From contig NZ_BMJH01000002.1 of NCBI RefSeq assembly GCF_014643175.1, forward strand, positions 372,001 to 436,000: DNA of 64,000 bases, written 5' to 3'. The translations under genes were made by a program, and so were the position numbers. Source of the stretch: Hoyosella rhizosphaerae (GTDB lineage: Bacteria > Actinomycetota > Actinomycetes > Mycobacteriales > Mycobacteriaceae). Below, piece after piece: positions 3,598 to 60,494 of this stretch (positions are counted from its first letter, which is position 1; every line of letters starts with the position of its first letter). Under the pieces are notes generated by a model that saw nothing but the letters and a program-made list of their open reading frames with translations, was not told the origin of the DNA and ran no database searches.

Positions 3598-4761
3598 ATG
3601 ACCACATCGATTACGCCGCGGTCCCTTCCCACCCGACCCAACCCGCCGCGTTTCGGCAAAACAGCCAAGAGCATCCTGAAGCGTCGCTTCTCGGTGGTCG
3701 ACCTCTTCGAGGCCATGGCAACGCCACACGCTGTGGATCGTTACCTTGAACTGGTTAACCCAATGGTGACGGTGCGTGACCTGCGCGCCAAGATCACCAG
3801 GGTCGACCGTCAGACTAAGGACACTGTCACCCTCGAGCTTCGCCCCACACGTCAGTGGAAGGGCTTTGAAGCCGGACAGTTCGTTCAGATCGGTGTTGTT
3901 GTTGACGGTGTGCGGCACACTCGGTGCTTCTCACCGGCGAACTCAGTGCACAGGCGTGACGGACGAATCGAATTAACTATCAAGGCCCACGCCGATGGTT
4001 TCGTTTCCCGCTACCTTCGCGAAAACGCAGAACCGGGACTTGTGGTTGAGCTATCGCAGGCAGCCGGCGTGTTTAAGCTTCCCGAGCAGCGCCCTGACAA
4101 GGTCGTCCTCCTCTCCGGTGGTAGTGGCATCACTCCAGTGCTGTCGATGCTTCGCACCTTGGTCGACGAGGGGCACGAGGGTGACATCACTTTCTTGCAC
4201 TACTGCGACACGGTCAACGATGTACCGCACGCAGACGCGCTTCGCGAGATTGCCCGCGAGAACAAGAACGTCACTCTACTTATCGCATCGACACTGCCTG
4301 GCGGCGGCGGCGACCTGCAAGGGTTCTTCGGAACTGAGCATGTCGACATCGCAGCGCCGTGGCTTGCCGAAGCACAAACTTTCCTCTGCGGACCGCCTCC
4401 GATGATGAACGCGATCCGCAAGTATTACGACGAACGCGACCTCGGCGACCGCCTCCATACAGAGGAGTTCCAGGTAGCTTCCACTGTCATCGATGACATC
4501 GAGGAAGCAACAGGCACGATCAACTTCTCAAGCAGCAGCGTGGAGAAAGAGAACGCAGGCTCGAGTTTGCTGGAAGAAGCCGAAGCGGCTGGTCTCAGTC
4601 CAGAATTCGGCTGCCGGATGGGTATTTGCTTCACCTGCACCGCAGTGAAGAAGTCCGGTTGCACCAAGAGCCTGCTTACCGGTGAAATCAATGACACTTC
4701 CGACGAGCCCATCCAACTGTGCGTGTCCCGCGCGGTGGGTGACGTTGAGATCGACATCTAG
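3598..4761 (+). CDS. Ferredoxin/flavodoxin reductase-type oxidoreductase, electron donor to the desaturase
   Basis: This 387-residue protein corresponds to the M. tuberculosis Rv3230c type, which supplies electrons to DesA3. An FAD-binding barrel carries the RCFSPAN motif near residue 110. A nucleotide-binding region has LLSGGSGITPVLSML and LCGPPPMM. A C-terminal plant-type [2Fe-2S] domain has the ligands CRMGICFTC and a later LCVS cysteine. It would move electrons from NAD(P)H through FAD and the cluster to the diiron desaturase. A good ribosome binding site (GAGGAG) precedes the ATG. The desaturase gene starts 110 bases downstream on the same strand. Confidence 0.92.
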   Translation: MTTSITPRSLPTRPNPPRFGKTAKSILKRRFSVVDLFEAMATPHAVDRYLELVNPMVTVRDLRAKITRVDRQTKDTVTLELRPTRQWKGFEAGQFVQIGVVVDGVRHTRCFSPANSVHRRDGRIELTIKAHADGFVSRYLRENAEPGLVVELSQAAGVFKLPEQRPDKVVLLSGGSGITPVLSMLRTLVDEGHEGDITFLHYCDTVNDVPHADALREIARENKNVTLLIASTLPGGGGDLQGFFGTEHVDIAAPWLAEAQTFLCGPPPMMNAIRKYYDERDLGDRLHTEEFQVASTVIDDIEEATGTINFSSSSVEKENAGSSLLEEAEAAGLSPEFGCRMGICFTCTAVKKSGCTKSLLTGEINDTSDEPIQLCVSRAVGDVEIDI

Positions 4762-4871
4762 TTACTGCTCCTGAGTCGCACTGCGACTCCCTCTCGCCAA
4801 AATCCAAGTTCAACGCCTGTGACGGTATCTCCATGCCAAAAACGGGCAGGAAACACTGAAGGAGAAACACC

Positions 4872-6134
4872 ATGGCTGTTATCAACTTCCCCGTATCGGC
4901 TCCGACACTTCCCGGTCGCGAACTTCGCCGTAAGGCAGCTTCGGCGGCTAAGTCCGGACTTTCGAAGGCCCCTATCGCTGGCCGCGTCTTCCGCGAAGAC
5001 GCTCCGCAAGCCGCTAAGGAGCCTGTGCGCATTACGTCCGAGCAGGTCGAAGAATTCGGCAAGGCGCTCGATGAGCTTCGTGCCCGAGTAGTTGCCGACC
5101 TCGGCGATCGGGATCGCGAATACATCTACAACGTCATCAAGGCCCAGCGCGCCCTTGAGGTAGCAGGTCGCGGCCTGATGTATGTATTGCCTGCGTGGCC
5201 GATCGCAGTTCTGTCGCTTGGACTGGCGAAGATTCTGGACAACATGGAAATCGGCCACAACGTGATGCATGGCCAGTACGACTGGATGCGCGAAAAGGGT
5301 CTCAACTCACGCGTCTTCGATTGGGACAATGTGTGCCCAGCTGATCAGTGGCGCCACTCGCACAACTACATGCACCACACCTTTACCAACATCCTCGACA
5401 TGGACCGCGACATTGGTTACGGGATCCTGCGTATGGACAAGGACCAGAAGTGGCACCCCTACTTCCTCGGCAACCCGGTCTACGCATTCCTGCTGATGAC
5501 GTTCTTCGAGTGGGGCGTGATGCTCCACGACATGCACGCCGAGGAGGTTGTGCAGGGCAAGCGTGACATGCGCGAAGTTGCGAAGCTGGCTAAAGGCTGG
5601 GTTCGCAAGGCAACGCCACAGGTGCTGAAGGACTACGTGATCTTCCCGGCGCTGACCGGTCCGTTGTTCCCAACGACTCTCGTGGGCAACGCTGCAGCGA
5701 ACCTCATCCGCAACGTGTGGACCTACAGCATCATTTTCTGTGGACACTTCCCCAACGGTGTTCAGGTGTTCACACAGGAAGAGACTGCCAACGAGACTCG
5801 CGCCGAATGGTACCTGCGCCAGATGCTCGGGTCAGCGAACATCGAGGGTGGCAACTTGTTCCACATCTTGTCGGGCAACTTGTCGCACCAAATTGAGCAC
5901 CACATCTTCCCGGACATCCCAGCGTTCCGTTACCCAGAGATGTCAGTTGAGGTTGAGGCGTTGGCCAAGAAGTACGGCCTTCCTTACAACAAGGGCAGCT
6001 TCCTCGGCCAGATCAGCTCAGTGTGGGTGAAGATCTTCAAGCTCGCTCTTCCAGACTCACTTGTTCGCCACGATGAGCCAGCCGGTGTGCTGATTGAGCG
6101 CAAGACGGAAGTTGAAGCCACCACAGCTGCCTGA
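4872..6134 (+). CDS. desA3: Membrane acyl-CoA (stearoyl) desaturase, DesA3-like
   Basis: The 420-residue integral-membrane diiron enzyme would insert a cis double bond into saturated acyl-CoA, giving oleate-type chains for membrane lipids. All three histidine boxes are present: HNVMHG, HSHNYMHH and HQIEHH (followed by IFPD). Hydrophobic segments lie around residues 95-115 and in the second half. The ATG follows AAGGAGAAACACC. It forms an operon with the upstream reductase gene and ends at the strong terminator at 6158-6187. A paralogue lies at 15510-16805. Confidence 0.92.
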   Translation: MAVINFPVSAPTLPGRELRRKAASAAKSGLSKAPIAGRVFREDAPQAAKEPVRITSEQVEEFGKALDELRARVVADLGDRDREYIYNVIKAQRALEVAGRGLMYVLPAWPIAVLSLGLAKILDNMEIGHNVMHGQYDWMREKGLNSRVFDWDNVCPADQWRHSHNYMHHTFTNILDMDRDIGYGILRMDKDQKWHPYFLGNPVYAFLLMTFFEWGVMLHDMHAEEVVQGKRDMREVAKLAKGWVRKATPQVLKDYVIFPALTGPLFPTTLVGNAAANLIRNVWTYSIIFCGHFPNGVQVFTQEETANETRAEWYLRQMLGSANIEGGNLFHILSGNLSHQIEHHIFPDIPAFRYPEMSVEVEALAKKYGLPYNKGSFLGQISSVWVKIFKLALPDSLVRHDEPAGVLIERKTEVEATTAA

Positions 6135-6206: not shown

Positions 6207-7568
<1,362 letters not shown>

Positions 7569-7703
7569 TTATGCGTTACGTCGTCAATTTTGGCAAGGCC
7601 TGGTAACAACTTCGCGTAACACGCAAATAGTACGGCGGGCTGACTGGGAGCGCTGAGATGGTCAATTCGACCTACAGTGGTTCGTGAGATGTGGAGGAGT
7701 GCC

Positions 7704-9143
7704 ATGCTGGTTCGGTCAGCTATCAGGGCGGGTGTGGTTGTGGCGTTGTCATTGACGACGGTTGCGGCCCTAACTGTTTCTGGTCAGTCTGCTCCTGTAC
7801 GCGCGCAGGGCGCTGAGGCGCAGGTGTGGCTCACGACAGGCGATCGTTCGGTGACGTTGCAGCAGGTCGCATCGGTGCCGCTCACGTCGCGCAAGGCGTC
7901 GGGTCCGAATGTGATTACGGTGAATCCCACGAGCCGACATCAGGTGATCACAGGTTTCGGTGCTTCGATAACAGGTGCGTCTGCATTCAATATCGCGTCC
8001 CTGTCTGCGGAGGCACGAGCAGAGTTGATGTCAGAACTGTTCAACCCCAACACTGGGATTGGTTTGAACTACCTGCGTCAGCCAATGGGCGCGTCAGATT
8101 TCAACGCTCCTGGTGACTTGTACACGTATCAGGACGAGTTGGACCCCGATGCGGATGATCACGGATTTTCAGTTGATATCGATGAGCAACTCGGTATTTT
8201 GCCGCTCATTCGTGAAGCATTAAGTGAAAATCCTGGGCTCCGTGTGATGGGAACACCGTGGAGCGCTCCGGCCTGGATGAAGAGCAGCGGCGACCTCCGA
8301 GGCGGTGCCCTAAACCCTGAGTCGATGTCCGAATATGCTCAGTACTTTGTTCGGTTTGTGGAGCAATATCGGGAACGCGGTGTAGCCGTTCAGATGGTAA
8401 CTCCAGGTAACGAACCGCTTTTCGCGAATCCAAAGTACCCGTCGATGCAGATGGGTACCGAACAGCAGGCTGAATTCGTTCGCGAACTGGATTCTGCGTT
8501 CAGCGACGCCAATCTCGATACGGAAATTTTGGTGTTTGATCACAACTGGTCAGACGCGTGGTACGCCGCCGATGTGCTCAACAAAACTGCCGACGTCGAA
8601 AGGGTAGTGGGCGCCGCCTTCCACTGCTATCACGGCGACCCATCGGCTCAGACCCAGGTCATTGCAGCTGGAAAACGCGTGATGGTGACGGAATGCACCG
8701 GAGTGCGGTCGTCGGACACATTTTTGCACACGCTGCTGTGGCAGTTTCAGAATCTGATCGTCGAAAGTTCACGCAACGGCAGTGAGGGCACCACCTTGTG
8801 GAACCTCGCTCTGGATGCTGAGGGCGGGCCACACCAAGGGTATTGCGACGACCGTTGCCGCGGGGTTGTTGAGGTTGCGGATGGTACTTACTCACTCAAC
8901 GCTGAATATTATGTCTTGGGGCATGCGAGCAAGTTTGTGAAGCCAGGGGCGGTCCGTCTCGGGTCTAACAGCGGAACTGGTTCGAACTCGTTGCGCAATG
9001 TCGCCTTCGAAAATCCAGATGGCAGTCGCGTGGTTTTGTTGATGAACCCATCAGGTCGGTCGCAGCGCTATTCCGTCACCGACGGTGCGGTGACAATGCA
9101 GGCGGACATTGAGGGAAACTCAGTCGCGACGATTGTGTGGTGA
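7704..9143 (+). CDS. Secreted glycoside hydrolase family 30 protein (glucosylceramidase-like)
   Basis: The 479-residue product starts with a Sec signal peptide (basic LVRSAIRAG, hydrophobic VVVALSLTTVAALTVSG, cleavage near VRAQGA). A GH30 barrel with a C-terminal beta domain follows. The acid/base glutamate is in TPGNEP and the nucleophile in VTECTG. The family includes glucosylceramidases, beta-1,6-glucanases and xylanases, so the substrate is not predictable. I chose ATG 7704 over the upstream GTG because GGAGG sits at the right distance. It converges on the glycosyltransferase operon with a 24-base 3' overlap, which suggests it may trim or recycle that operon's polysaccharide. Confidence 0.88.
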   Translation: MLVRSAIRAGVVVALSLTTVAALTVSGQSAPVRAQGAEAQVWLTTGDRSVTLQQVASVPLTSRKASGPNVITVNPTSRHQVITGFGASITGASAFNIASLSAEARAELMSELFNPNTGIGLNYLRQPMGASDFNAPGDLYTYQDELDPDADDHGFSVDIDEQLGILPLIREALSENPGLRVMGTPWSAPAWMKSSGDLRGGALNPESMSEYAQYFVRFVEQYRERGVAVQMVTPGNEPLFANPKYPSMQMGTEQQAEFVRELDSAFSDANLDTEILVFDHNWSDAWYAADVLNKTADVERVVGAAFHCYHGDPSAQTQVIAAGKRVMVTECTGVRSSDTFLHTLLWQFQNLIVESSRNGSEGTTLWNLALDAEGGPHQGYCDDRCRGVVEVADGTYSLNAEYYVLGHASKFVKPGAVRLGSNSGTGSNSLRNVAFENPDGSRVVLLMNPSGRSQRYSVTDGAVTMQADIEGNSVATIVW

Positions 9144-10325
9144 TGTGGGTGTCAGCCCATACCGCTCAGCCCGGTATGGGTCCTTCAGTCGCCCCTCGCG
9201 GGTGAATAGTCCTGCGATGTTGAGGGCTGAGCGCTCGATCACCCAGTAGCTCACCCCGCCGACAAGCATTGTGAGTACCAAGAGGAGCGCTGTTGCTAGC
9301 GGCCATGTTGCACTGGACTGGAAGTTGATCCAACGCCAGTCACTCATCGCGAGCATCAGGGGTTCGTGCCAAATGTAGACGCTGTAGGAGATGAGCCCTA
9401 GCCACATCAGGGTCGGTGTGGCGAGGGTTCGTTCGAGTCGTGATCCGCGTGGCCCGAGCACTGTCGCGGACATTAACAGCACGAACCCAATCGCGATGAC
9501 GCTCGATTCGAATACTTGCGCTTCAGGTGTTGTAGCTGCATACAGGTATGTCGCGATGATTGCGGCGACGCCGGAAGATCCCACAACAACAGCGGTTTTG
9601 GTGCCGAACATAGGGTGAATTCGGTTGTGAAGGTAAAGGACGGCGAGAAGCATGCCGAGCGCAAACTGGTCGAGTTTCGCAGGGAAACTGAAGTAGACAA
9701 CATAATTGCTGGTCGGGATGCCCGCTACGAAGTATGCCCAGGTTTTAAACAGCACACTGGCTGCAATGAGGCTCAGAATTACCCCGACGACAATCGTGCT
9801 CCGTGCAGAAGGCGTGGCGACGCGGGCGCACCAGGCGCACACCGCGCTTCCGGCGACGAGCACAAATACGTAGAACATCACTTCGATGGCCAGTGACCAC
9901 GCGGGCCCGATCGTGTAAAAGATGCGCTGATTGTCGAAGACATGGGTGAAGGTGAGGTGTTGCAGCAGGTCACGCCACGCTTCAGTGCTGGGCCAGTATC
10001 GCGTCGTCCACACCACGATGATGGCGATGTAGTACAGCGGGATAATCCGGATGGCGCGGCGGATCAGGAACCCACGCGGTGACGGCGTGGTGGTTTGGTC
10101 CAGGGCTGCTTTGGCGAACGGTAGGAAGATGAGGAATCCCGACAGCACGAAGAAGAATGCGACGCCGTGGTTGAGCGCCCGCAGGGTTGCATCGAGGAAG
10201 AATTGATCTTCGTAAACGTAGGCGTTGGTGATGCGGGATGTTTGGTAAGCGTGAAAGATGACAACACTCAGGGCTGCGATGCCACGGTAGCTTTCGAGTT
10301 CGGCAAATCGGGTGGCCGCGCTCAT
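9120..10325 (-). CDS. Acyltransferase-3 family membrane O-acyltransferase
   Basis: The 401-residue polytopic protein (roughly ten membrane helices) shows the Acyl_transf_3 pattern. It opens with RFAELESYRGIAALSVVIFHA and continues with FFFVLSGFL, FLIRRAIRIIPLYY and a TIGPAWSLAIEVMFY segment carrying the conserved glutamate. A WHEPL motif lies near the C-terminus. Such enzymes O-acetylate or O-succinylate cell-surface polysaccharides and lipids. The ATG at 10325 overlaps the histidine kinase stop codon (ATGA), so translation is coupled. As last gene of the operon it probably decorates the polymer made by the fused glycosyltransferase. Confidence 0.9.
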   Translation of the reverse strand: MSAATRFAELESYRGIAALSVVIFHAYQTSRITNAYVYEDQFFLDATLRALNHGVAFFFVLSGFLIFLPFAKAALDQTTTPSPRGFLIRRAIRIIPLYYIAIIVVWTTRYWPSTEAWRDLLQHLTFTHVFDNQRIFYTIGPAWSLAIEVMFYVFVLVAGSAVCAWCARVATPSARSTIVVGVILSLIAASVLFKTWAYFVAGIPTSNYVVYFSFPAKLDQFALGMLLAVLYLHNRIHPMFGTKTAVVVGSSGVAAIIATYLYAATTPEAQVFESSVIAIGFVLLMSATVLGPRGSRLERTLATPTLMWLGLISYSVYIWHEPLMLAMSDWRWINFQSSATWPLATALLLVLTMLVGGVSYWVIERSALNIAGLFTREGRLKDPYRAERYGLTPTSPHNRRD

Positions 10326-11953
10326 CGGGCCGCAGCCTGTGGAGGTGCGAGCGCCTTGTCGTTGCATCGCGGAAGGCGAATCGTAAATGTGGTGCCTTTT
10401 CGTGGGGCGCTTCGTACGCTGATGGTGCCGTGGTGAAGTTCGACGATGGTGCGCACGATGGCGAGTCCTAGGCCGGTGCCATTAATACCGCGGTCGGTGT
10501 TTTTTTCAGATCTCCAATAGCGTTCGAACACTAGCTTTTGATCTGAGTCGTCTAATCCGAACCCTTGGTCAGTCACCGCAATGGTGGCGTCGATGTCTGA
10601 AGACTCAAGGGTTAATGTGATCGCACTCCGGGGCGGGGAGTACTTAATCGCGTTGTCGAGAAGGTTGTCGAGCGCCTGAGTTAGTTTGTCGGCGTCTGCG
10701 GTGATGGTGATGTGGGTGGGTCCGGCAATGTGGAACGTGTAGTTGGTGTGCGCGCGCTGTCGACGAGAAACGATCATTCGGACGAGGTTCGCCAGGTCGA
10801 TTTCTGCAGCGGCAAGCGGTGCCTTGGTCGCCTCGAGGGTGCTTGCGTTGAGGATTTCGTTGCACATCCGGCTGAGGCGTTGCGCGTCGGTGTGGATATC
10901 GTTGGCGAAGTCTTTCACTTCCTCCACGGTCAAGTCGTTGTCTCGAATGAGCTCGCTGAATGCGAGCATGCCCGTGAGTGCAGTGCGAAATTCGTGGCTA
11001 ATGACGGAGACCAGTCCAGTTTGTTGCGCGTTTGTTCGTAGGAGATCCGCGTGTGCTGATCGGTGGGCGAGCAGTGCAGCTTCGGCGGCCTGTTCAGCTC
11101 TCATTCGGTCGGTGATGTCTCGCAGTGTTAGCACCATCTGGTGGGATGATCCGTGGGGGTACCCAGTGGCGGACAATTCGACTGGAATCTTTTTCCCGCT
11201 ATCTTGGATGACCTTTCCACTTCCGCGATAGGAAAACTCCGAGATTGTGCGTTTTTGGACTATTTGTCGTGCAAGTGAATTTCTGAGGTCTTCCGTTAAG
11301 ATGTCCGAGATGGGCTTTCCATATAAGTGTGTTCCGATAAGTTTGTCGGCTGCCCCATTAGATTGAATTACTGCGCCACTCGAATTGACCACTAACAGTG
11401 CATCGCTGATGGAGTCAAGAATCGTCGTCTCAAGTGTTCGAGTTTCAACTAGAACATGGTGGGTCACTTCTGCATCGATCGCGGATATCGAATTGTCCAA
11501 AATGTCGATGAGGTCGCTGAGAAGCAAGGAGTCGCGTGTGGAAGCGACGTGCGGGGCGGTGTCTGCGACCACCAATGCTCCAATAGTGATGCCTCGACGC
11601 GAGCGGATCGGCGCACCGATGAGCGCGCGCACATCATGATGAAGCACGTGCTCCATGTCGGCGAACCGGGGGTCATTGCGCGCATCGGTGCTGGTAACAA
11701 TCGTGTTGGCACGAACTATCAACGATGTGATTGACGAGTCATGATCGACGTAGTCGAGGTCAGCCCCTTGTGCTGATGCGACGCGAACGCCATTCGCGGT
11801 GATGATGCCTATTGCTGCGAAGTCATAGTCAAAGATCCGACTTGCTAGACGCGTGACGGGGTCAAAACGCGAGTCCTTCTCGCTCGTGCCAAGACCAAGT
11901 CGTGCGACCTCAGCGAGCCGTTGTGCTTCATCAACTGAATTTAGTTGTTCCAT
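10322..11953 (-). CDS. Soluble GAF-PAS sensor histidine kinase
   Basis: The 543-residue protein has no membrane helix. A GAF domain spans about residues 15-165 and a PAS domain about 170-285 (ILDSISDALLVVNSSGAVIQ). A HisKA domain follows with SHEFRTALTG, in which the phospho-accepting histidine is near residue 320. The C-terminal ATPase domain has DNLLDNAIKYS, DQGFGLD and GTGLGLAIV. ATG 11953 is preferred because AGGGGG lies 8 bases upstream. A GTG nine bases earlier is possible. It lies 15 bases after the receiver-glycosyltransferase fusion and is its most likely phosphate donor. The input would be cytosolic, such as a small molecule or redox state. Confidence 0.92.
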   Translation of the reverse strand: MEQLNSVDEAQRLAEVARLGLGTSEKDSRFDPVTRLASRIFDYDFAAIGIITANGVRVASAQGADLDYVDHDSSITSLIVRANTIVTSTDARNDPRFADMEHVLHHDVRALIGAPIRSRRGITIGALVVADTAPHVASTRDSLLLSDLIDILDNSISAIDAEVTHHVLVETRTLETTILDSISDALLVVNSSGAVIQSNGAADKLIGTHLYGKPISDILTEDLRNSLARQIVQKRTISEFSYRGSGKVIQDSGKKIPVELSATGYPHGSSHQMVLTLRDITDRMRAEQAAEAALLAHRSAHADLLRTNAQQTGLVSVISHEFRTALTGMLAFSELIRDNDLTVEEVKDFANDIHTDAQRLSRMCNEILNASTLEATKAPLAAAEIDLANLVRMIVSRRQRAHTNYTFHIAGPTHITITADADKLTQALDNLLDNAIKYSPPRSAITLTLESSDIDATIAVTDQGFGLDDSDQKLVFERYWRSEKNTDRGINGTGLGLAIVRTIVELHHGTISVRSAPRKGTTFTIRLPRCNDKALAPPQAAAR

Positions 11954-11968
11954 CGTTGCCACCCCCTG

Positions 11969-14227
11969 TTAAGCCGCATCCCGTGGTGTCACTCGCCATT
12001 GGACATCGCCGCGTATGTGGCGTAGCTGGGAGACCATCGCGATTGCATTTCGGAAATTAACGTAGGCGATCGAAACGAGTGCGTACCAAAGAAACCACCG
12101 CTTGTTTTGGCGAATATCCGGGTGCGAAAGTAGGTACGTAATGATCGTTACCGCTGGACCAGTTGCGACCGTAAAGATCGTTGTCAGAATGAAAATGGGG
12201 ATTAAGTAATCAAGTTCGCCGGCACCGCCCGCCTTCCACATCATGAACGCCAGAATGGGGAACACCTGGAGTGCTAACCAGGGATAGATTTCGCGCCACA
12301 CCAACAAATGGAAAATACCGAGCTTCTGGCGTACTGAGGTGTTCCGAGACCGGATCGCTGAGATTGCGTGTTCGAGTGTCACCTCAAACCATCCCTGTGC
12401 CCAGCGCAGGCGCTGATTCCACAAGCTTTTGAGGGTTACGGGTGCAAGTTCACGCGAAATGATCAGTGGATCATTGACGATCTTTCGCCCAGCGGTAACT
12501 GACCGGATCGACGAATCGATGTCCTCTGTGAGCATGAAGCCGTGCATCCGCGTATTGCGTAGTACCTCTCCGCGCCAGTAGCCATTGGAACCACCGAAGA
12601 TGCCGAAATCGTGCATCCGAGCCCGCCCAGGGTGGGCCACTGCGTAGATCGTTTCAAACTCGACGGCAACCGTGCGGGCAACCCATGAGGCATCGCCGTT
12701 GCGTACTAAACAATGCCCTTGAACAATGTCGTTACCTGCTGCGATCCACTGCCATGCTCGCGTGAAGCTGATCGGATCGGGGTGGTGATCCGCATCGAAG
12801 ATGCCCACCATGTCGGAGCGGGTACGGCTTACCGCGAAATTAACATTCTGCGCTTTAGATGTGCTGTCGGGCACGTTGAGCAGGGTGAGCCGGGGGTTTT
12901 CGCGCGCTAGCTCGCGGAGTGCCGCCTCCACAGGCAACTCCGCCGGGGTGTTGTACGCGAGGACAACTTCAAGATCGCCTGGATAGTCAACTCGCAAAAA
13001 TGCGTGAACGGTGTCCACAATCGTCGCGGCCTCATTGGGCAAAAACGCAGCAATGATTGCGGCGGCAGGCGGATATGGGCCATCCCACGGCGGCGGATCC
13101 TCCTCTCGCATTGCGAGGAGTCCTTCGATCCAGATGAAGATTGCGGTGCCGAGCAGTGCGACAACGACCAGGATGTACATGGCCGGAACAATGTTGATGA
13201 CGTATCTATCAAAGGCCACGTAGGCGATCAGGGGCAGGACGAACGCGATAAGGAACACCGCAACGAGTTCGAACGGCGTGACAAGTGGGCGTAGCCACGA
13301 CATGCCCTTTTCTTTGGTGGGGGCCGGGGCGTGCATTCGTGCGTCCCACTCGAGGGGTTCGAGGTCGAGCAGCAGTCGGGACTGTTCGCGAGCTATATGT
13401 GCGCGTTCAACAAGTTCGGCTGACGTGTCCGCGAGGGGGGTGTAGCCAATAACGGGGGTGACGTGGATTGTTTCGCCGCCGATTTCGAACGGCGAGCTAT
13501 TGACGGCGCGGCTGAGGTTTTGTAGACGCTTGCGCCCGGCTTCTGGTGACGTTTCAGGTAGAAGTATGTTCATTCCGCCGAAGCGCGACCTGCCGACCAG
13601 GTCGAGGGGCTCAGCGATTTCCGTAAATCGATCACTCAACGCGGTCCATAGTTGTGCAGCGTAAGCAGGGCCTAGCCGCTCGACTATGGCTGCAGACTCA
13701 TGGATATCGAGTTCAGCGACGATGCCGGTACGTCGAGATGCGCTGACACGGAAAAGTTCGCGATCGAGTTCATCGCGAAACTGGGGGTTGCTGAGAATCC
13801 TTCTGTGGGTGCGGCCAGGGAGATCAGCGACCGGCACCGGGGGGCGCTCTAACTTGCCCTTGACGCGAGCAACGAGTTCTTCGATCGCAAATGGCTTGGC
13901 AATGTAATCGTCGGCTCCGTGTCGAAGGCCCTCGACGCGATCTGAAATTTCGGCCTTAGCTGTCAGCATGAGGACCGGAATTGGAGCGAGGTCGGGATCG
14001 GCGCGGATGCTTTTCAGCAGTTCAAGGCCGTCGAGGCGGGGCATCATCAAGTCGGACACGATGACATCGGGCCTTGTACCTGTGAGACGTTCGAGGGCTT
14101 CAATACCGTCACTTGATTCGATGACGTGCATTCCTGCTTTAGTTAAGCCAACCCGGATTGCCTTGCGGATCCGTACTTCGTCATCGACGACAAGAACAGT
14201 TGGTAGATCAGTTTGTGCGCCGTTCAC
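11969..14227 (-). CDS. Response-regulator receiver / degenerate GGDEF / family-2 glycosyltransferase fusion
   Basis: This 752-residue protein has three parts. Residues 10-125 form a receiver domain (VLVVDDE, phospho-Asp59 in SDLMMPRLDG, Lys111 in AKPF). Residues 140-285 look like a GGDEF domain whose signature has become RFGGM, so it probably makes no cyclic-di-GMP. From about 320 a membrane-embedded processive GT2 begins, with helices at 318-340 and 345-372. Its catalytic motifs are DAD (478-480), TEDID (567-571) and QRLRW (605-609), and further helices run to about 735. It would polymerise and probably export a polysaccharide under phosphorylation control. The GTG start lacks a clear ribosome binding site. 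Confidence 0.92.
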   Translation of the reverse strand: MNGAQTDLPTVLVVDDEVRIRKAIRVGLTKAGMHVIESSDGIEALERLTGTRPDVIVSDLMMPRLDGLELLKSIRADPDLAPIPVLMLTAKAEISDRVEGLRHGADDYIAKPFAIEELVARVKGKLERPPVPVADLPGRTHRRILSNPQFRDELDRELFRVSASRRTGIVAELDIHESAAIVERLGPAYAAQLWTALSDRFTEIAEPLDLVGRSRFGGMNILLPETSPEAGRKRLQNLSRAVNSSPFEIGGETIHVTPVIGYTPLADTSAELVERAHIAREQSRLLLDLEPLEWDARMHAPAPTKEKGMSWLRPLVTPFELVAVFLIAFVLPLIAYVAFDRYVINIVPAMYILVVVALLGTAIFIWIEGLLAMREEDPPPWDGPYPPAAAIIAAFLPNEAATIVDTVHAFLRVDYPGDLEVVLAYNTPAELPVEAALRELARENPRLTLLNVPDSTSKAQNVNFAVSRTRSDMVGIFDADHHPDPISFTRAWQWIAAGNDIVQGHCLVRNGDASWVARTVAVEFETIYAVAHPGRARMHDFGIFGGSNGYWRGEVLRNTRMHGFMLTEDIDSSIRSVTAGRKIVNDPLIISRELAPVTLKSLWNQRLRWAQGWFEVTLEHAISAIRSRNTSVRQKLGIFHLLVWREIYPWLALQVFPILAFMMWKAGGAGELDYLIPIFILTTIFTVATGPAVTIITYLLSHPDIRQNKRWFLWYALVSIAYVNFRNAIAMVSQLRHIRGDVQWRVTPRDAA

Positions 14228-14274
14228 GGCACTACGCTAGCCGGTTGGAAATGGCTATGCCTTTTATGTGGCGC

Positions 14275-15195
14275 TTACCTCAGTACGGGTATAACGTCAC
14301 TGCCGACCAACCACTCGTCAGCGAGTTCTTCAAGTACTCCGTCATTATGTAGGTGTTCGAGCGCAAGACTGGCGCATTCAGTGAACTCGCTGTCCTTTTC
14401 GAGCACAAGGCCGAAAAACTCCGTCACTTCATTCGGGGCCGGAAACTTACCAACAACAATTCCGCCACCAAGTTGTTCCTCAGCCATTCTGACAGCCGTG
14501 GGGAGGTCGGCAACAACAGCATCAATTTCGCCGAGAGCGAGGGCGTTGAGCGCCTCGCCATGGGTCGCGAATCCAATAGGGGCACGCGTAGGTTTGATCG
14601 AATGCGTCGCGGAGTACAAGCTTGTCGAATCGGCGTATGCGCCTATCTGTAAATCTTCTAGGTCCTCGAGATTCTCCGCTGAGGCGGCGGCCGTTCCTTC
14701 TAACGCAACAACTGCTTGTGCCACCGCGTAATACGGCGATGAGAAGTCAACAAAATCGCGCCTAGGGCCGATGATGCTGAACTGATTTATCGCGAAATCA
14801 AAGTCCTTTGGCCCGCTGGCGAGTGCGTCAGAGAAGGGGACGCGGACGAAGGTCGTTGACCCAGAGTCGTAGCCCAAGGTCGTAGCGACAGCATGTGCCA
14901 CTGCGCCCTCAAACCCTTCGCCGGTAGTGGGGTCATTGTCGATGATCCACGGAGCGAAGGCCGGATCGTCAACTGCGATGGTGAGTTGTGCGTCTTCGAG
15001 AGTGCGTCCACCGCCGGGGCCGCACCGTGGTGGGATGCCTTCCGGGGTTGCGTTAGGAAGCCGCAAAGACCCTGGTGGGGGCAGGGGATCTGGCTCTGCC
15101 GGAGAGTCCGGGGCAGAAGAGTTGCAGCCAGTCGCCACAAGCGCTGCGGCCATGAACGGGCCGACAAGCGCATATCCCAGCATTTTGTGTGGCAT
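14275..15195 (-). CDS. Solute-binding lipoprotein, amino-acid (SBP_bac_3) type, without a transporter
   Basis: This 306-residue lipoprotein has a signal peptide ending in the lipobox LVATGC, with lipidated cysteine 24. A periplasmic binding fold of the glutamate/glutamine type follows (QLTIAVDDPAFAPW, GFEGAVAHAVATTLG, DFAINQFSIIGPRRDFVDFSSPYY). No permease or ATPase gene is near. It is instead the first gene of the operon with the receiver-glycosyltransferase fusion, 47 bases upstream of it. It may therefore bind an extracellular ligand or glycan intermediate and inform this system, but that is inference. The ATG at 15195 follows AGGAAAA. Confidence 0.88.
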   Translation of the reverse strand: MPHKMLGYALVGPFMAAALVATGCNSSAPDSPAEPDPLPPPGSLRLPNATPEGIPPRCGPGGGRTLEDAQLTIAVDDPAFAPWIIDNDPTTGEGFEGAVAHAVATTLGYDSGSTTFVRVPFSDALASGPKDFDFAINQFSIIGPRRDFVDFSSPYYAVAQAVVALEGTAAASAENLEDLEDLQIGAYADSTSLYSATHSIKPTRAPIGFATHGEALNALALGEIDAVVADLPTAVRMAEEQLGGGIVVGKFPAPNEVTEFFGLVLEKDSEFTECASLALEHLHNDGVLEELADEWLVGSDVIPVLR

Positions 15196-15509
15196 CAGTC
15201 ACGTTTTCCTAGTGGCGGCAACAGTGTTGGTTCCATTATGAACCAACGCCAGCGCGGCGCTAAACAACCAACAGTGCGCGTCAGCGTCTATTTCGTAACG
15301 CCTGGGTCAACATGTCGGATCGTTCGTTTAGTCGCAGCTAGTGTTAATTTACCGCACGGGTGCGGGTATGTGGTGACGGCAACTGATCTGAAGAATGGTG
15401 ACCTTCTTCATAGCGCGGTGCTGAATTCTCGGGTATTCGGATAATGTCAACCGCATTGATCAGAGTTGATCGCGTGGTTAGCCGCGTAGAATTTTGGGGA
15501 GGCGAACAG
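15196..15509. other. Intergenic region between the polysaccharide operon and the second desaturase
   Basis: No convincing gene lies in these 314 bases. They must hold the divergent promoters of the lipoprotein-led operon and the second desaturase. A perfect 8-bp inverted repeat (GTTGGTTC at 15226-15233, GAACCAAC at 15240-15247) lies about 30 bases upstream of the lipoprotein start, where a repressor would act. Near 15440-15480 there are TTGATC repeats before the desaturase gene. Confidence 0.5.
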
Positions 15510-16805
15510 ATGGTGGCACTGCCGTTTCAAGGGGTGAAACGACATGCGGCAAGTGCATTTGCGCGATCTGGGGCAGTTGTTAGTTCCGTTAATAATGTTG
15601 TCGTAAAAATCCCATTCGCGGATAAAGTTCTTTTTTCTGCGCAGGCCACTAAGATAACTGACTACCCTCCGATTTCGGAAACGTCCGAAAATGAGCCAAT
15701 TCGCCTAACGCTCGATCAAGTCGAAGAGTTTGGACGTGCGCTCGACGAAATTAGGTTTCGCCACCTAGCCGATTTGGGCGATCGTGACCGCCAGTACATT
15801 TACTCGGTATTGCGAACGCAACGTGCTTTGGAGGTCGCCGGACGTGGACTGTTCTACTTGAGTTTCATTCCGCCGGTATGGCTTGCAGCCGTCGGCGCGC
15901 TAGCGATGTCGAAAATTATCGACAACCTCGAAATTGGCCACAACGTGATGCATGGCCAGTACGACTTCATGCACGAGCGAGGCTTCAATTCGCGTGTCTT
16001 CGAATGGGACATGGCGGTGCAATCGGACCTGTGGCGGTACTCCCACAACTACCGCCACCACACTTTCACGAATGTTGCGGACCAGGACCGGGATATCGGG
16101 TTTGGTGTCATGCGCATGGACGAAGACCGTCCGTGGCATCCGTTTTTCCTCCTCAACCCAGTGCTCGGCACGTTGATTGTTGTCTGGTTCGAATGGCTCA
16201 CTGCGTTGCACGTCCTCGAACTCGACCACAGCGTCGTTGGTGGTGACACTAAGGCCAAGGTGAAGAAGGTCGTTCAGCATTGGTGGGCAAAAATAGCCCC
16301 TCAAGCGATCAAGGACTACGTCTTTTTCCCAGCGCTTTCGGGGCCGCTTTTTCCGCTTACCTTTGCGGGCAATGCCACTGCGAACATCATTCGAAACCTC
16401 TGGGTGGGCAACCTCGTGTTTTGCGGGCACTTTCCAGCCGGATCACAAACCTTCAGCGATAAAGACATCGAAGGTGAGACTCGCGGCGAGTGGTACTTGC
16501 GTCAAATCTTGGGCTCAGCGAACTTCACTGGGTCTCGGCTATTCCACATTTTGTCGGGACATACCGGGCATCAGGTAGAACACCACTTGTTCCCTGACAT
16601 TCCGGCATGGAGGTTGCCCGAAATCTCCGTGGAAGTGCAGGCGCTCTGCGAGAAGTACGGATTGCCGTACAACACGGGTCGGCTGTCCAGCCAGCTGTTG
16701 TCTGCCTGGGTGCGGATTGTGAAGCTCGGTTTGCCGCCGTCGTGGGTCAAGCCAGAGGCGTTCCGCACTGTTATCGTAGACAGGGGAGCGCGTAGACCGT
16801 CTTAG
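15510..16805 (+). CDS. Second membrane acyl-CoA desaturase, DesA3 paralogue
   Basis: The 431-residue protein is closely similar along its length to the desaturase at 4872-6134. It carries the same three histidine boxes (HNVMHG, HNYRHH, HQVEHH). I chose ATG 15510 because GGGGAGG precedes it and its start (MVALPFQGVKR) aligns with the paralogue's MAVINFPV. Unlike the first copy it has no reductase gene beside it, so it presumably shares that partner. It may differ in chain length or regulation. The small 16830 gene follows after 24 bases and is probably cotranscribed. Confidence 0.9.
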   Translation: MVALPFQGVKRHAASAFARSGAVVSSVNNVVVKIPFADKVLFSAQATKITDYPPISETSENEPIRLTLDQVEEFGRALDEIRFRHLADLGDRDRQYIYSVLRTQRALEVAGRGLFYLSFIPPVWLAAVGALAMSKIIDNLEIGHNVMHGQYDFMHERGFNSRVFEWDMAVQSDLWRYSHNYRHHTFTNVADQDRDIGFGVMRMDEDRPWHPFFLLNPVLGTLIVVWFEWLTALHVLELDHSVVGGDTKAKVKKVVQHWWAKIAPQAIKDYVFFPALSGPLFPLTFAGNATANIIRNLWVGNLVFCGHFPAGSQTFSDKDIEGETRGEWYLRQILGSANFTGSRLFHILSGHTGHQVEHHLFPDIPAWRLPEISVEVQALCEKYGLPYNTGRLSSQLLSAWVRIVKLGLPPSWVKPEAFRTVIVDRGARRPS

Positions 16806-58386: not shown

Positions 58387-59076
58387 ATGCGAATACTCGT
58401 TGTCGACGACGATCGTGCCGTACGCGAATCCTTGCGGCGGTCACTTTCGTTCAACGGATACACAGTAGAACTTGCCGTCGACGGTGTTGATGCTTTGGAG
58501 CGCGTAGCCGCTTCGCCGCCCGACGCGTTAGTTCTAGACGTAATGATGCCGAGGATGGACGGTTTAGAAGTCTGCCGCCGGTTGCGAAGCCAGGGGGACG
58601 ACCGACCAATTCTTGTCCTCACCGCGCGGGATTCAGTGTCAGAACGAGTGTCCGGACTTGACGCAGGAGCTGATGATTACCTCCCCAAGCCGTTTGCGCT
58701 GGAAGAGCTGCTCGCTCGACTGCGTGCACTACTTCGCCGTCGGGGCGCCCACGACGGTGATGGAGCAGCGGAGGCCATGGAGTTCGCGGGATTGACGATG
58801 GATCCAGTTACCCGCGAAGTCACGCGCGACGAGCGACCCATCAGCCTCACGCGGACCGAGTTTTCACTTCTCGAAATGCTCATGGCCAACCCACGTAGGG
58901 TGCTGACTAGGGCGCGCATCTTGGAAGAGGTGTGGGGATACGACTTTCCCACCAGCGGGAACGCCCTTGAGGTGTACATCGGGTACCTGCGTCGCAAGAC
59001 CGAATCTGAGGGCGAACCTCGAATAATCCACACAGTTCGGGGAGTGGGGTATGTCCTGCGGGAGACCCCACCGTGA
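58387..59076 (+). CDS. mprA: OmpR-family response regulator MprA
   Basis: The 229-residue regulator has a receiver domain ([14 protein letters not shown], phospho-Asp51 in [13 protein letters not shown], Lys in [13 protein letters not shown]). A C-terminal winged helix ([52 protein letters not shown]) follows. With MprB it forms the envelope-stress system of mycobacteria that controls sigE and pepD. The next gene overlaps by four bases. The order mprA-mprB-pepD-moaB2-mscL supports the symbol. Confidence 0.93.
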
Positions 59077-60494
59077 GCGAGAGCGGGGCAGTGCCCGTTC
59101 ACGCCCGCATCACGCGAACAATGTCGCTCCGCACCCGTGTAGCCCTGCTCGCTGCGCTGGTTGTTGCATTTTCTGTTGCGCTGGTCTCCACCGCGGCCTA
59201 TAGCGTTGTCGCGCGGGCTCTGTACTCCGACGTCGATGCTCAACTGCAGAAACGCGTAGACGTCATCATCGAGACGCACAGCCTTGAACGGTTTGGTGCG
59301 TCCGCTGTCAGTGCGGCATCGTTGTTCTCCGACACGCTGTCGGGCACCCTGGTGTACCCAGATAGAACAGCGACGCCAATGTCACCCCTCATTGAACTTG
59401 GCGAGACAGAGTTCGCCGTCATTCGTGGCGACGCGGAGTCTTCTCTGCGGACAATTGGGAACCGCCGAGTAATCGCGCAACGATCAAACGAAGGCTCAAC
59501 GCTGGTGTTGGCGCAAGATCTTGCGCCAACACAGGCGGTACTCGACAGGCTTTCGATCGTGCTTTTCATTGTCGGCGGATGCGGCGTGATTCTAGCGGCA
59601 GCAGCCGGTACTGCCGTTGGGCGAACAGGGTTGCGACCCGTAGGTCGGCTAACCGCTGCCGCGCAACGAGTCGCCCGCACCGATGACCTCACGCCAATAC
59701 CTGTCACCGGGGATGACGAGCTCGCACGCCTCACTGAGGCATTTAACTCGATGCTGCTAGCGCTAAGAGAATCCAGGGAACGTCAAGCACGGCTCGTGGC
59801 CGATGCGGGCCATGAGCTTCGAACACCGTTGACGTCGTTGCGGACTAATACCGAGTTGCTGATCGCCGCGAACAAATACGGGGCTGGCGGGTTGTCTCCT
59901 GAGGATATGGAAGGTCTGCAAAGCGACGTATTGGCGCAGATCGAGGAACTGTCCACACTCGTCGGTGACCTGGTGGATCTTGCGCGTGAAGATTCCTCGG
60001 AACCTGGCCTTGAACGCATTGATTTAGCGGAAGTGGTCGACCGCACCATTGAACGCGTGCGGCGTCGACGCACTGATGTGACGATCATTGCGTCAACTGT
60101 TGGCTGGTTTGTGTGGGGGGACTCGGGCGGGCTCTCTCGCGCGCTCCTCAACGTCCTCGACAACGCCGCGAAATGGAGTCCTTCAGGCGGATCCATCATG
60201 GTCACAATGACCCAATCGGGGGAGAACCGAATCAATGTGGTTATCGATGACGACGGACCAGGCATTCCCCTAAAGGAACGCGCACTTGTCTTCGAGCGCT
60301 TTTACCGTTCTGACGAATCACGGTCCATGCCAGGCTCCGGCCTAGGGCTCGCGATTGTGTACCACGTGGTGCATCGCCATGGGGGCGACGTCACCATTGG
60401 TGACTCCCCAACTGGAGGAGCGCGCGTGACGGTGTCCTTGCCGGGGCAACCCGCAGACATACCACTGGACGTGGGAGACAATGGAGGGACGTGA
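59073..60494 (+). CDS. mprB: Sensor histidine kinase MprB
   Basis: The 473-residue kinase has two membrane helices (about 23-45 and 160-182) around an extracytoplasmic domain of about 115 residues. A HAMP linker ([18 protein letters not shown]) follows, then a HisKA domain with His247 in [11 protein letters not shown], and an ATPase domain ([29 protein letters not shown]). It phosphorylates MprA on envelope stress. In mycobacteria DnaK holds it inactive. GTG 59073 overlaps the mprA stop. A perfect 28-bp palindrome lies inside the gene at the extracytoplasmic domain/second helix boundary. Confidence 0.93.
59505..59532. repeat. Perfect 28-bp palindrome within mprB
   Basis: The bases at 59505-59518 (GTGTTGGCGCAAGA) are followed without spacer by their exact reverse complement at 59519-59532. 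The palindrome encodes MprB residues V145 to T153 (VLAQDLAPT). Confidence 0.9.

Follow-up and report, generated by a model that had tools for sequence, protein, structure and literature searches.

Synthase-dependent exopolysaccharides, such as cellulose, poly-N-acetylglucosamine (PNAG), Pel, and Pss, are controlled post-translationally by cyclic diguanosine monophosphate (c-di-GMP). The subject of this work is a gene module centered on a membrane glycosyltransferase of family 2 (GT2) that carries its own receiver domain (REC) and a degenerate GGDEF domain. It is encoded by Hoyosella rhizosphaerae (3.54 Mb, 16 contigs) in a window of 64,000 nucleotides, contig C2:372001-436000. What is said of published systems refers to the available parts of the cited papers. 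In Listeria, the GT2-type synthase of the Pss system (PssC/PssE) is controlled with a degenerate GGDEF protein; there, this protein stands on its own, with c-di-GMP bound at its I-site (PMC4125290), whereas here the domain is fused to the synthase, stands behind a REC, and lacks the I-site arginine. In Methanobacteriaceae, one or two RECs are fused to a BcsA-like glycosyltransferase (GT) of family PF13641 (MTH_548; PMC5847659). This type, compared by description only, is archaeal, and the available text mentions no pseudo-GGDEF domain and no partner kinase, acyltransferase, or glycoside hydrolase of family 30 (GH30). A GT2 glucan synthase with PilZ and no GGDEF has also been described (PMC10374906), and a further paper deals with Pel in Gram-positive bacteria (PMC7112168).

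Among proteins of solved structure, BcsA is closest to the GT in sequence and also among the best by fold, but neither a PilZ domain on the GT protein (Pfam, E 0.001) nor BcsB among the neighbors scanned by Pfam was found; we infer that the REC takes the place of BcsA's c-di-GMP control. A GT2 synthase is likewise shared with icaADBC/PgaC, in which IcaC is an acyltransferase-3-like protein and, to our knowledge, no REC or kinase is fused; no deacetylase was found among the neighbors scanned here, and the GT scores 83.6 bits against NCBIfam PgaC_IcaA, far under the 422-bit cut-off. A literature search, with subscription literature largely outside its scope, turned up no description of such a module in bacteria. 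The sequence-only reading, an earlier description of the locus made from the DNA letters alone, had known of no described system of this kind, which holds for the gene set and fails for the fusion of a REC to a BcsA-like GT, given the Methanobacteriaceae precedent (PMC5847659). Papers on Actinoplanes sporangia were considered as prior art and set aside, as the available parts treat other gene types (PMC13390465, PMC12691653); a term search of the text of a third (PMC11064477) gave no match.

Judged from gene content and motifs, the module is rather probably a synthase-dependent system under two-component control, gated by phosphorylation, whose product would be an acylated polymer and perhaps a beta-glucan. 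Its genes, given by position in the window, are:

11969-14227, minus strand: REC-pseudo-GGDEF-GT2 synthase (open reading frame (ORF), Pfam, motifs)
10322-11962, minus strand: GAF-PAS-HisKA-HATPase histidine kinase (ORF, Pfam, SHEFRT motif)
9120-10325, minus strand: Acyl_transf_3 integral membrane acyltransferase (ORF, Pfam; the longest ORF frame starts at 10367)
7677-9143, plus strand: GH30 glycoside hydrolase (Pfam), convergent to the acyltransferase gene

Within the GT protein the features are arranged as follows:

residues 11-123: REC
residues about 149-282: pseudo-GGDEF domain
residues 386-663: GT2 Pfam match
residues about 321-339, 349-367, and 669-687: hydrophobic segments

The REC (Response_reg, 1e-29) retains the phosphoacceptor Asp59 (DLMMP), the acidic pair, and the lysine, and the GT2 part (PF13641, 2e-19) harbors DADHH, TEDID, and QRLRW as its DxD, TED, and QxxRW motifs, together with membrane helices. 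The GGDEF match is marginal (4e-4; 20.6 bits, below the 23.8-bit cut-off), and SRFGGMN stands where the motif would be. The kinase shows the Pfam domains GAF, PAS_9, HisKA, and HATPase_c, with its histidine within SHEFRT; it is probably soluble, since no hydrophobic segment was detected at the threshold used. The acyltransferase matches Acyl_transf_3 at 2e-25; a sequence search at E 0.01 gave it no relative of known structure. GT and kinase genes are spaced by 6 bases (GTG start) or 15 bases (ATG start), kinase and acyltransferase genes overlap as ATGA, and the 3' end of the GH30 gene overlaps the acyltransferase gene by 24 bases. A scan for sigma-70 consensus sites returned none, where chance alone would give 3.3, and terminator-like sites occur at chance level (6 versus 5.6 expected); both scans tell little about whether the genes share a transcript.

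In a kinship sample, one of the 40 other genomes has a relative of the GT (E 1e-60). Relatives were also found in five of 395 other phylum-level genomes (E 1e-50; 6/396 with its own), and, searched with the pseudo-GGDEF and GT part, in 15 of 396 other order-level genomes (E 1e-60; 16/397 with its own), one of which, G029, had already been counted in the kinship sample. Of 72,556 records, a single one, a Streptomyces plasmid, carries a relative, and a search of a contig collection yielded four loci, namely one in an actinomycete metagenome-assembled genome (MAG), two in cyanobacterial MAGs (GT part), and one REC-only match. In the class of G191, two of 39 genomes are positive, both already found. 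The core is thus distributed patchily. Twenty-four loci and the window, 25 in all, were compared by matching their neighborhoods against the window's genes; the two cyanobacterial loci served as outgroup, with their ORFs listed and left out of the partner scan. As the loci were picked by GT similarity alone and never by their neighbors, partner recurrence is not a selection effect. The counts are to be read with care, since occurrences in kindred genomes do not count independently, G477 supplies two loci, L057 and L058 of G487 are perhaps halves of one, and several contigs end near the GT, so that partners may be missed.

An Acyl_transf_3 gene belongs to the cluster at 15 of the 25 loci: directly downstream on the same strand at 13, upstream in L046, and behind the kinase gene in the window (a weak match in L054, 25% and 3 kb away, was not counted). 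The GAF-PAS histidine kinase is present at six (the window, L022, L023, L043, L045, and L046) and occurs only with a REC-bearing GT, i.e. at 6/12 loci with REC versus 0/11 without; L044 has a match to the kinase core at a distance of 6.5 kb, which was not counted. REC-GT2, kinase, and acyltransferase are found together in one other locus, L046, where the kinase gene is cut by the contig end. Next to kinase and REC-GT2, a stand-alone REC gene, absent in the window, is found in L022, L023, L043, and L045; it is possibly a phosphate sink or relay. An ordinary response regulator (Trans_reg_C output) and a HAMP histidine kinase form a pair at 58387-60494 of the window, and the REC of this pair is the genome's highest scorer against the GT fusion (47%). 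L024 (G071 C1, 8537-11263) is a GT2 relative without REC; genes resembling rpoB and rpoC directly precede it, and a PA14/fn3 protein follows.

GH30 is a recurrent partner overlooked by the sequence-only reading. It passes the Pfam cut-off and is, from its N-terminal hydrophobic segment, probably secreted. The gene is near the GT in seven of the 25 loci; in a set of 24 genomes (the source genome, three congeners, and 20 other GT-bearing genomes), it lies less than 10 kb from the GT in six of the seven genomes that have it, and nine of the 12 GH30 genes are near a GT. The nearest PDB entry is 5ngk, which we take to be a beta-1,6-glucanase, and NCBIfam NF053856 (GH30 endo-1,6-beta-glucanase) is the best hit at 310.5 bits, against an equivalog cut-off of 700 bits. 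This partner hints that the polymer may be a beta-glucan, possibly beta-1,6-linked.

In the proposed mechanism, the soluble GAF-PAS kinase would detect a cytoplasmic signal and phosphorylate Asp59 of the REC, which would act via the inactive GGDEF domain on the fused GT2. The latter would resemble cellulose synthase and work processively, both synthesizing the polymer and extruding it; the acyltransferase-3 protein would attach acyl groups, and the secreted GH30 would trim or release the product. A synthase with its own receiver would place polymer synthesis under direct phosphorylation control. As far as sequence can tell, recurrence in distant genomes picked by GT alone supports the earlier ideas that polymer synthesis is the regulated output, that the kinase is the partner of the synthase, and that the acyltransferase decorates the product. 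The exact order of the four genes then grouped as an operon (lipoprotein, GT, kinase, acyltransferase) was found at none of the 24 other GT loci, and a 'self-contained' machine made of them leaves out the GH30 hydrolase.

It is unlikely, though worth weighing, that what the GT2 and the acyltransferase produce is an acylated glycolipid or a modified envelope glycan and not an exported polymer. Lipid desaturase genes flank the block, Acyl_transf_3 proteins work on many sugars and lipids, and the fold matches of the GT include non-processive enzymes, one of them top-ranked. The matches listed span residues about 307-743, i.e. without the pseudo-GGDEF domain, in a structure model with a mean predicted local distance difference test score (pLDDT) of 53 that was built from four sequences and is unusable in its REC part. 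However, the QxxRW motif and the helices that flank the catalytic domain on either side fit processive synthases, the type we take them to indicate, and the probably secreted GH30 recurs near the GT.

The sequence-only reading had described a REC-GGDEF-GT2 fusion, of which REC and GT2 stand and the GGDEF is to be replaced by a pseudo-domain. None of 22 aligned rows contains GG[DE]EF, although the domain itself is uncertain in five (L010, L026, and L054-L056), and an active diguanylate cyclase was rejected for the GT fusion on this ground. PF00990 has three matches in the source genome: the GT fusion, one SDEEF protein, and a short sub-threshold one without the motif. The SDEEF protein (L073, G000 C1:623335-623769) is the genome's only other GGDEF match above cut-off. 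Judged from these motifs, a classical diguanylate cyclase may be absent from the organism. That the pseudo-GGDEF domain still binds c-di-GMP or GTP, with second-messenger gating as in Pel and Pss and the REC as a modulator, appears rather improbable. RxxD is kept at the I-site position in L022 and L023, and the degenerate GGDEF of FimX is described as a GTP sensor in the available part of PMC8846402. Against this, 20 of the 22 aligned rows lack the I-site arginine, as does the window, where the position reads EPLD, and the source genome has no canonical GGDEF motif, though an unrecognized cyclase is still conceivable. Control by c-di-GMP via this domain is therefore considered unlikely in the source organism. 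The relay reading goes further: a dead GGDEF domain would have been rewired from second-messenger reception to the relay of REC phosphorylation, in a patchy actinobacterial synthase family with kinase control at the enzyme, dedicated acylation, and a GH30 eraser. This we hold tentatively, at slightly less than even chances. The REC-less relatives and the two that keep the I-site would then form a natural series in which the conversion of a cyclase fold into a relay could be followed.

The remaining genes of the neighborhood are:

14275-15195, minus strand: SBP_bac_3 lipoprotein (ORF, Pfam)
6207-7547, minus strand: NADP glutamate dehydrogenase (GDH), part of the same 8.1-kb block
3598-6134: ferredoxin-reductase-like gene, then the first desaturase gene, a flank of the block
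15444-16805: second desaturase gene, the other flank, 9 kb from the first

About 8.1 kb (after 6134 to before 14275), comprising GDH, GH30, acyltransferase, kinase, and REC-GT2, lie between the first desaturase and the lipoprotein. GDH has no match in the three congeners (E 1e-40) and was not detected close to the GT at any of the 24 other loci; it is probably a passenger in the block. Neither the GT part (E 1e-30) nor GH30 (E 1e-15) has a match in the congeners; kinase and acyltransferase were looked for at the syntenic place only. Each gene of the block has a G+C content of 0.55-0.58 versus 0.578 for the window. In the GT tree, the window stands on a long branch with low backbone support, and an earlier quick tree had placed it with L022-L024. 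With this long branch and the G+C equal to that of the window, no horizontal donor was assigned. Gain of the block here and loss in the congeners both fit the comparison of four species, the equal G+C, and the long branch.

As the sequence-only reading had it, the lipoprotein (SBP_bac_3, 1e-14), GT, kinase, and acyltransferase genes all lie on the minus strand with an ATGA overlap, and ORFs, strands, and named domains were all confirmed, the GGDEF only as a marginal match; its 47-base gap between lipoprotein and GT genes is correct, and its 15-base gap holds for the ATG start of the kinase gene. The lipoprotein may share a transcript with the GT gene. As a component of the module it was rejected on synteny: all three congeners carry, in the same orientation, SBP lipoprotein genes alone between the same two desaturase genes (one in L067, two each in L065 and L066; 54-68% identical to the window's), with a palindrome, seen by eye, right behind the first desaturase gene, and the lipoprotein was not detected in the neighborhoods of the 24 other GT loci. 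Since the congeners keep it there without the module, it is an old resident of the desaturase neighborhood and probably no part of the module. Another rival is a four-gene sensing operon, with the kinase informed of an extracellular solute by the lipoprotein in the way that GlnH signals to PknG through GlnX. It has a mycobacterial precedent (PMC6069109, available part) and the same-strand gene 47 bases upstream in its favor, but this synteny, a kinase without a membrane segment, and a scan of the block and the genes around it that showed no GlnX-like gene or Ser/Thr kinase make it very improbable. Desaturase and SBP lipoprotein genes are kept together in 3/3 congeners, so the role of the lipoprotein may be tied to the desaturases.
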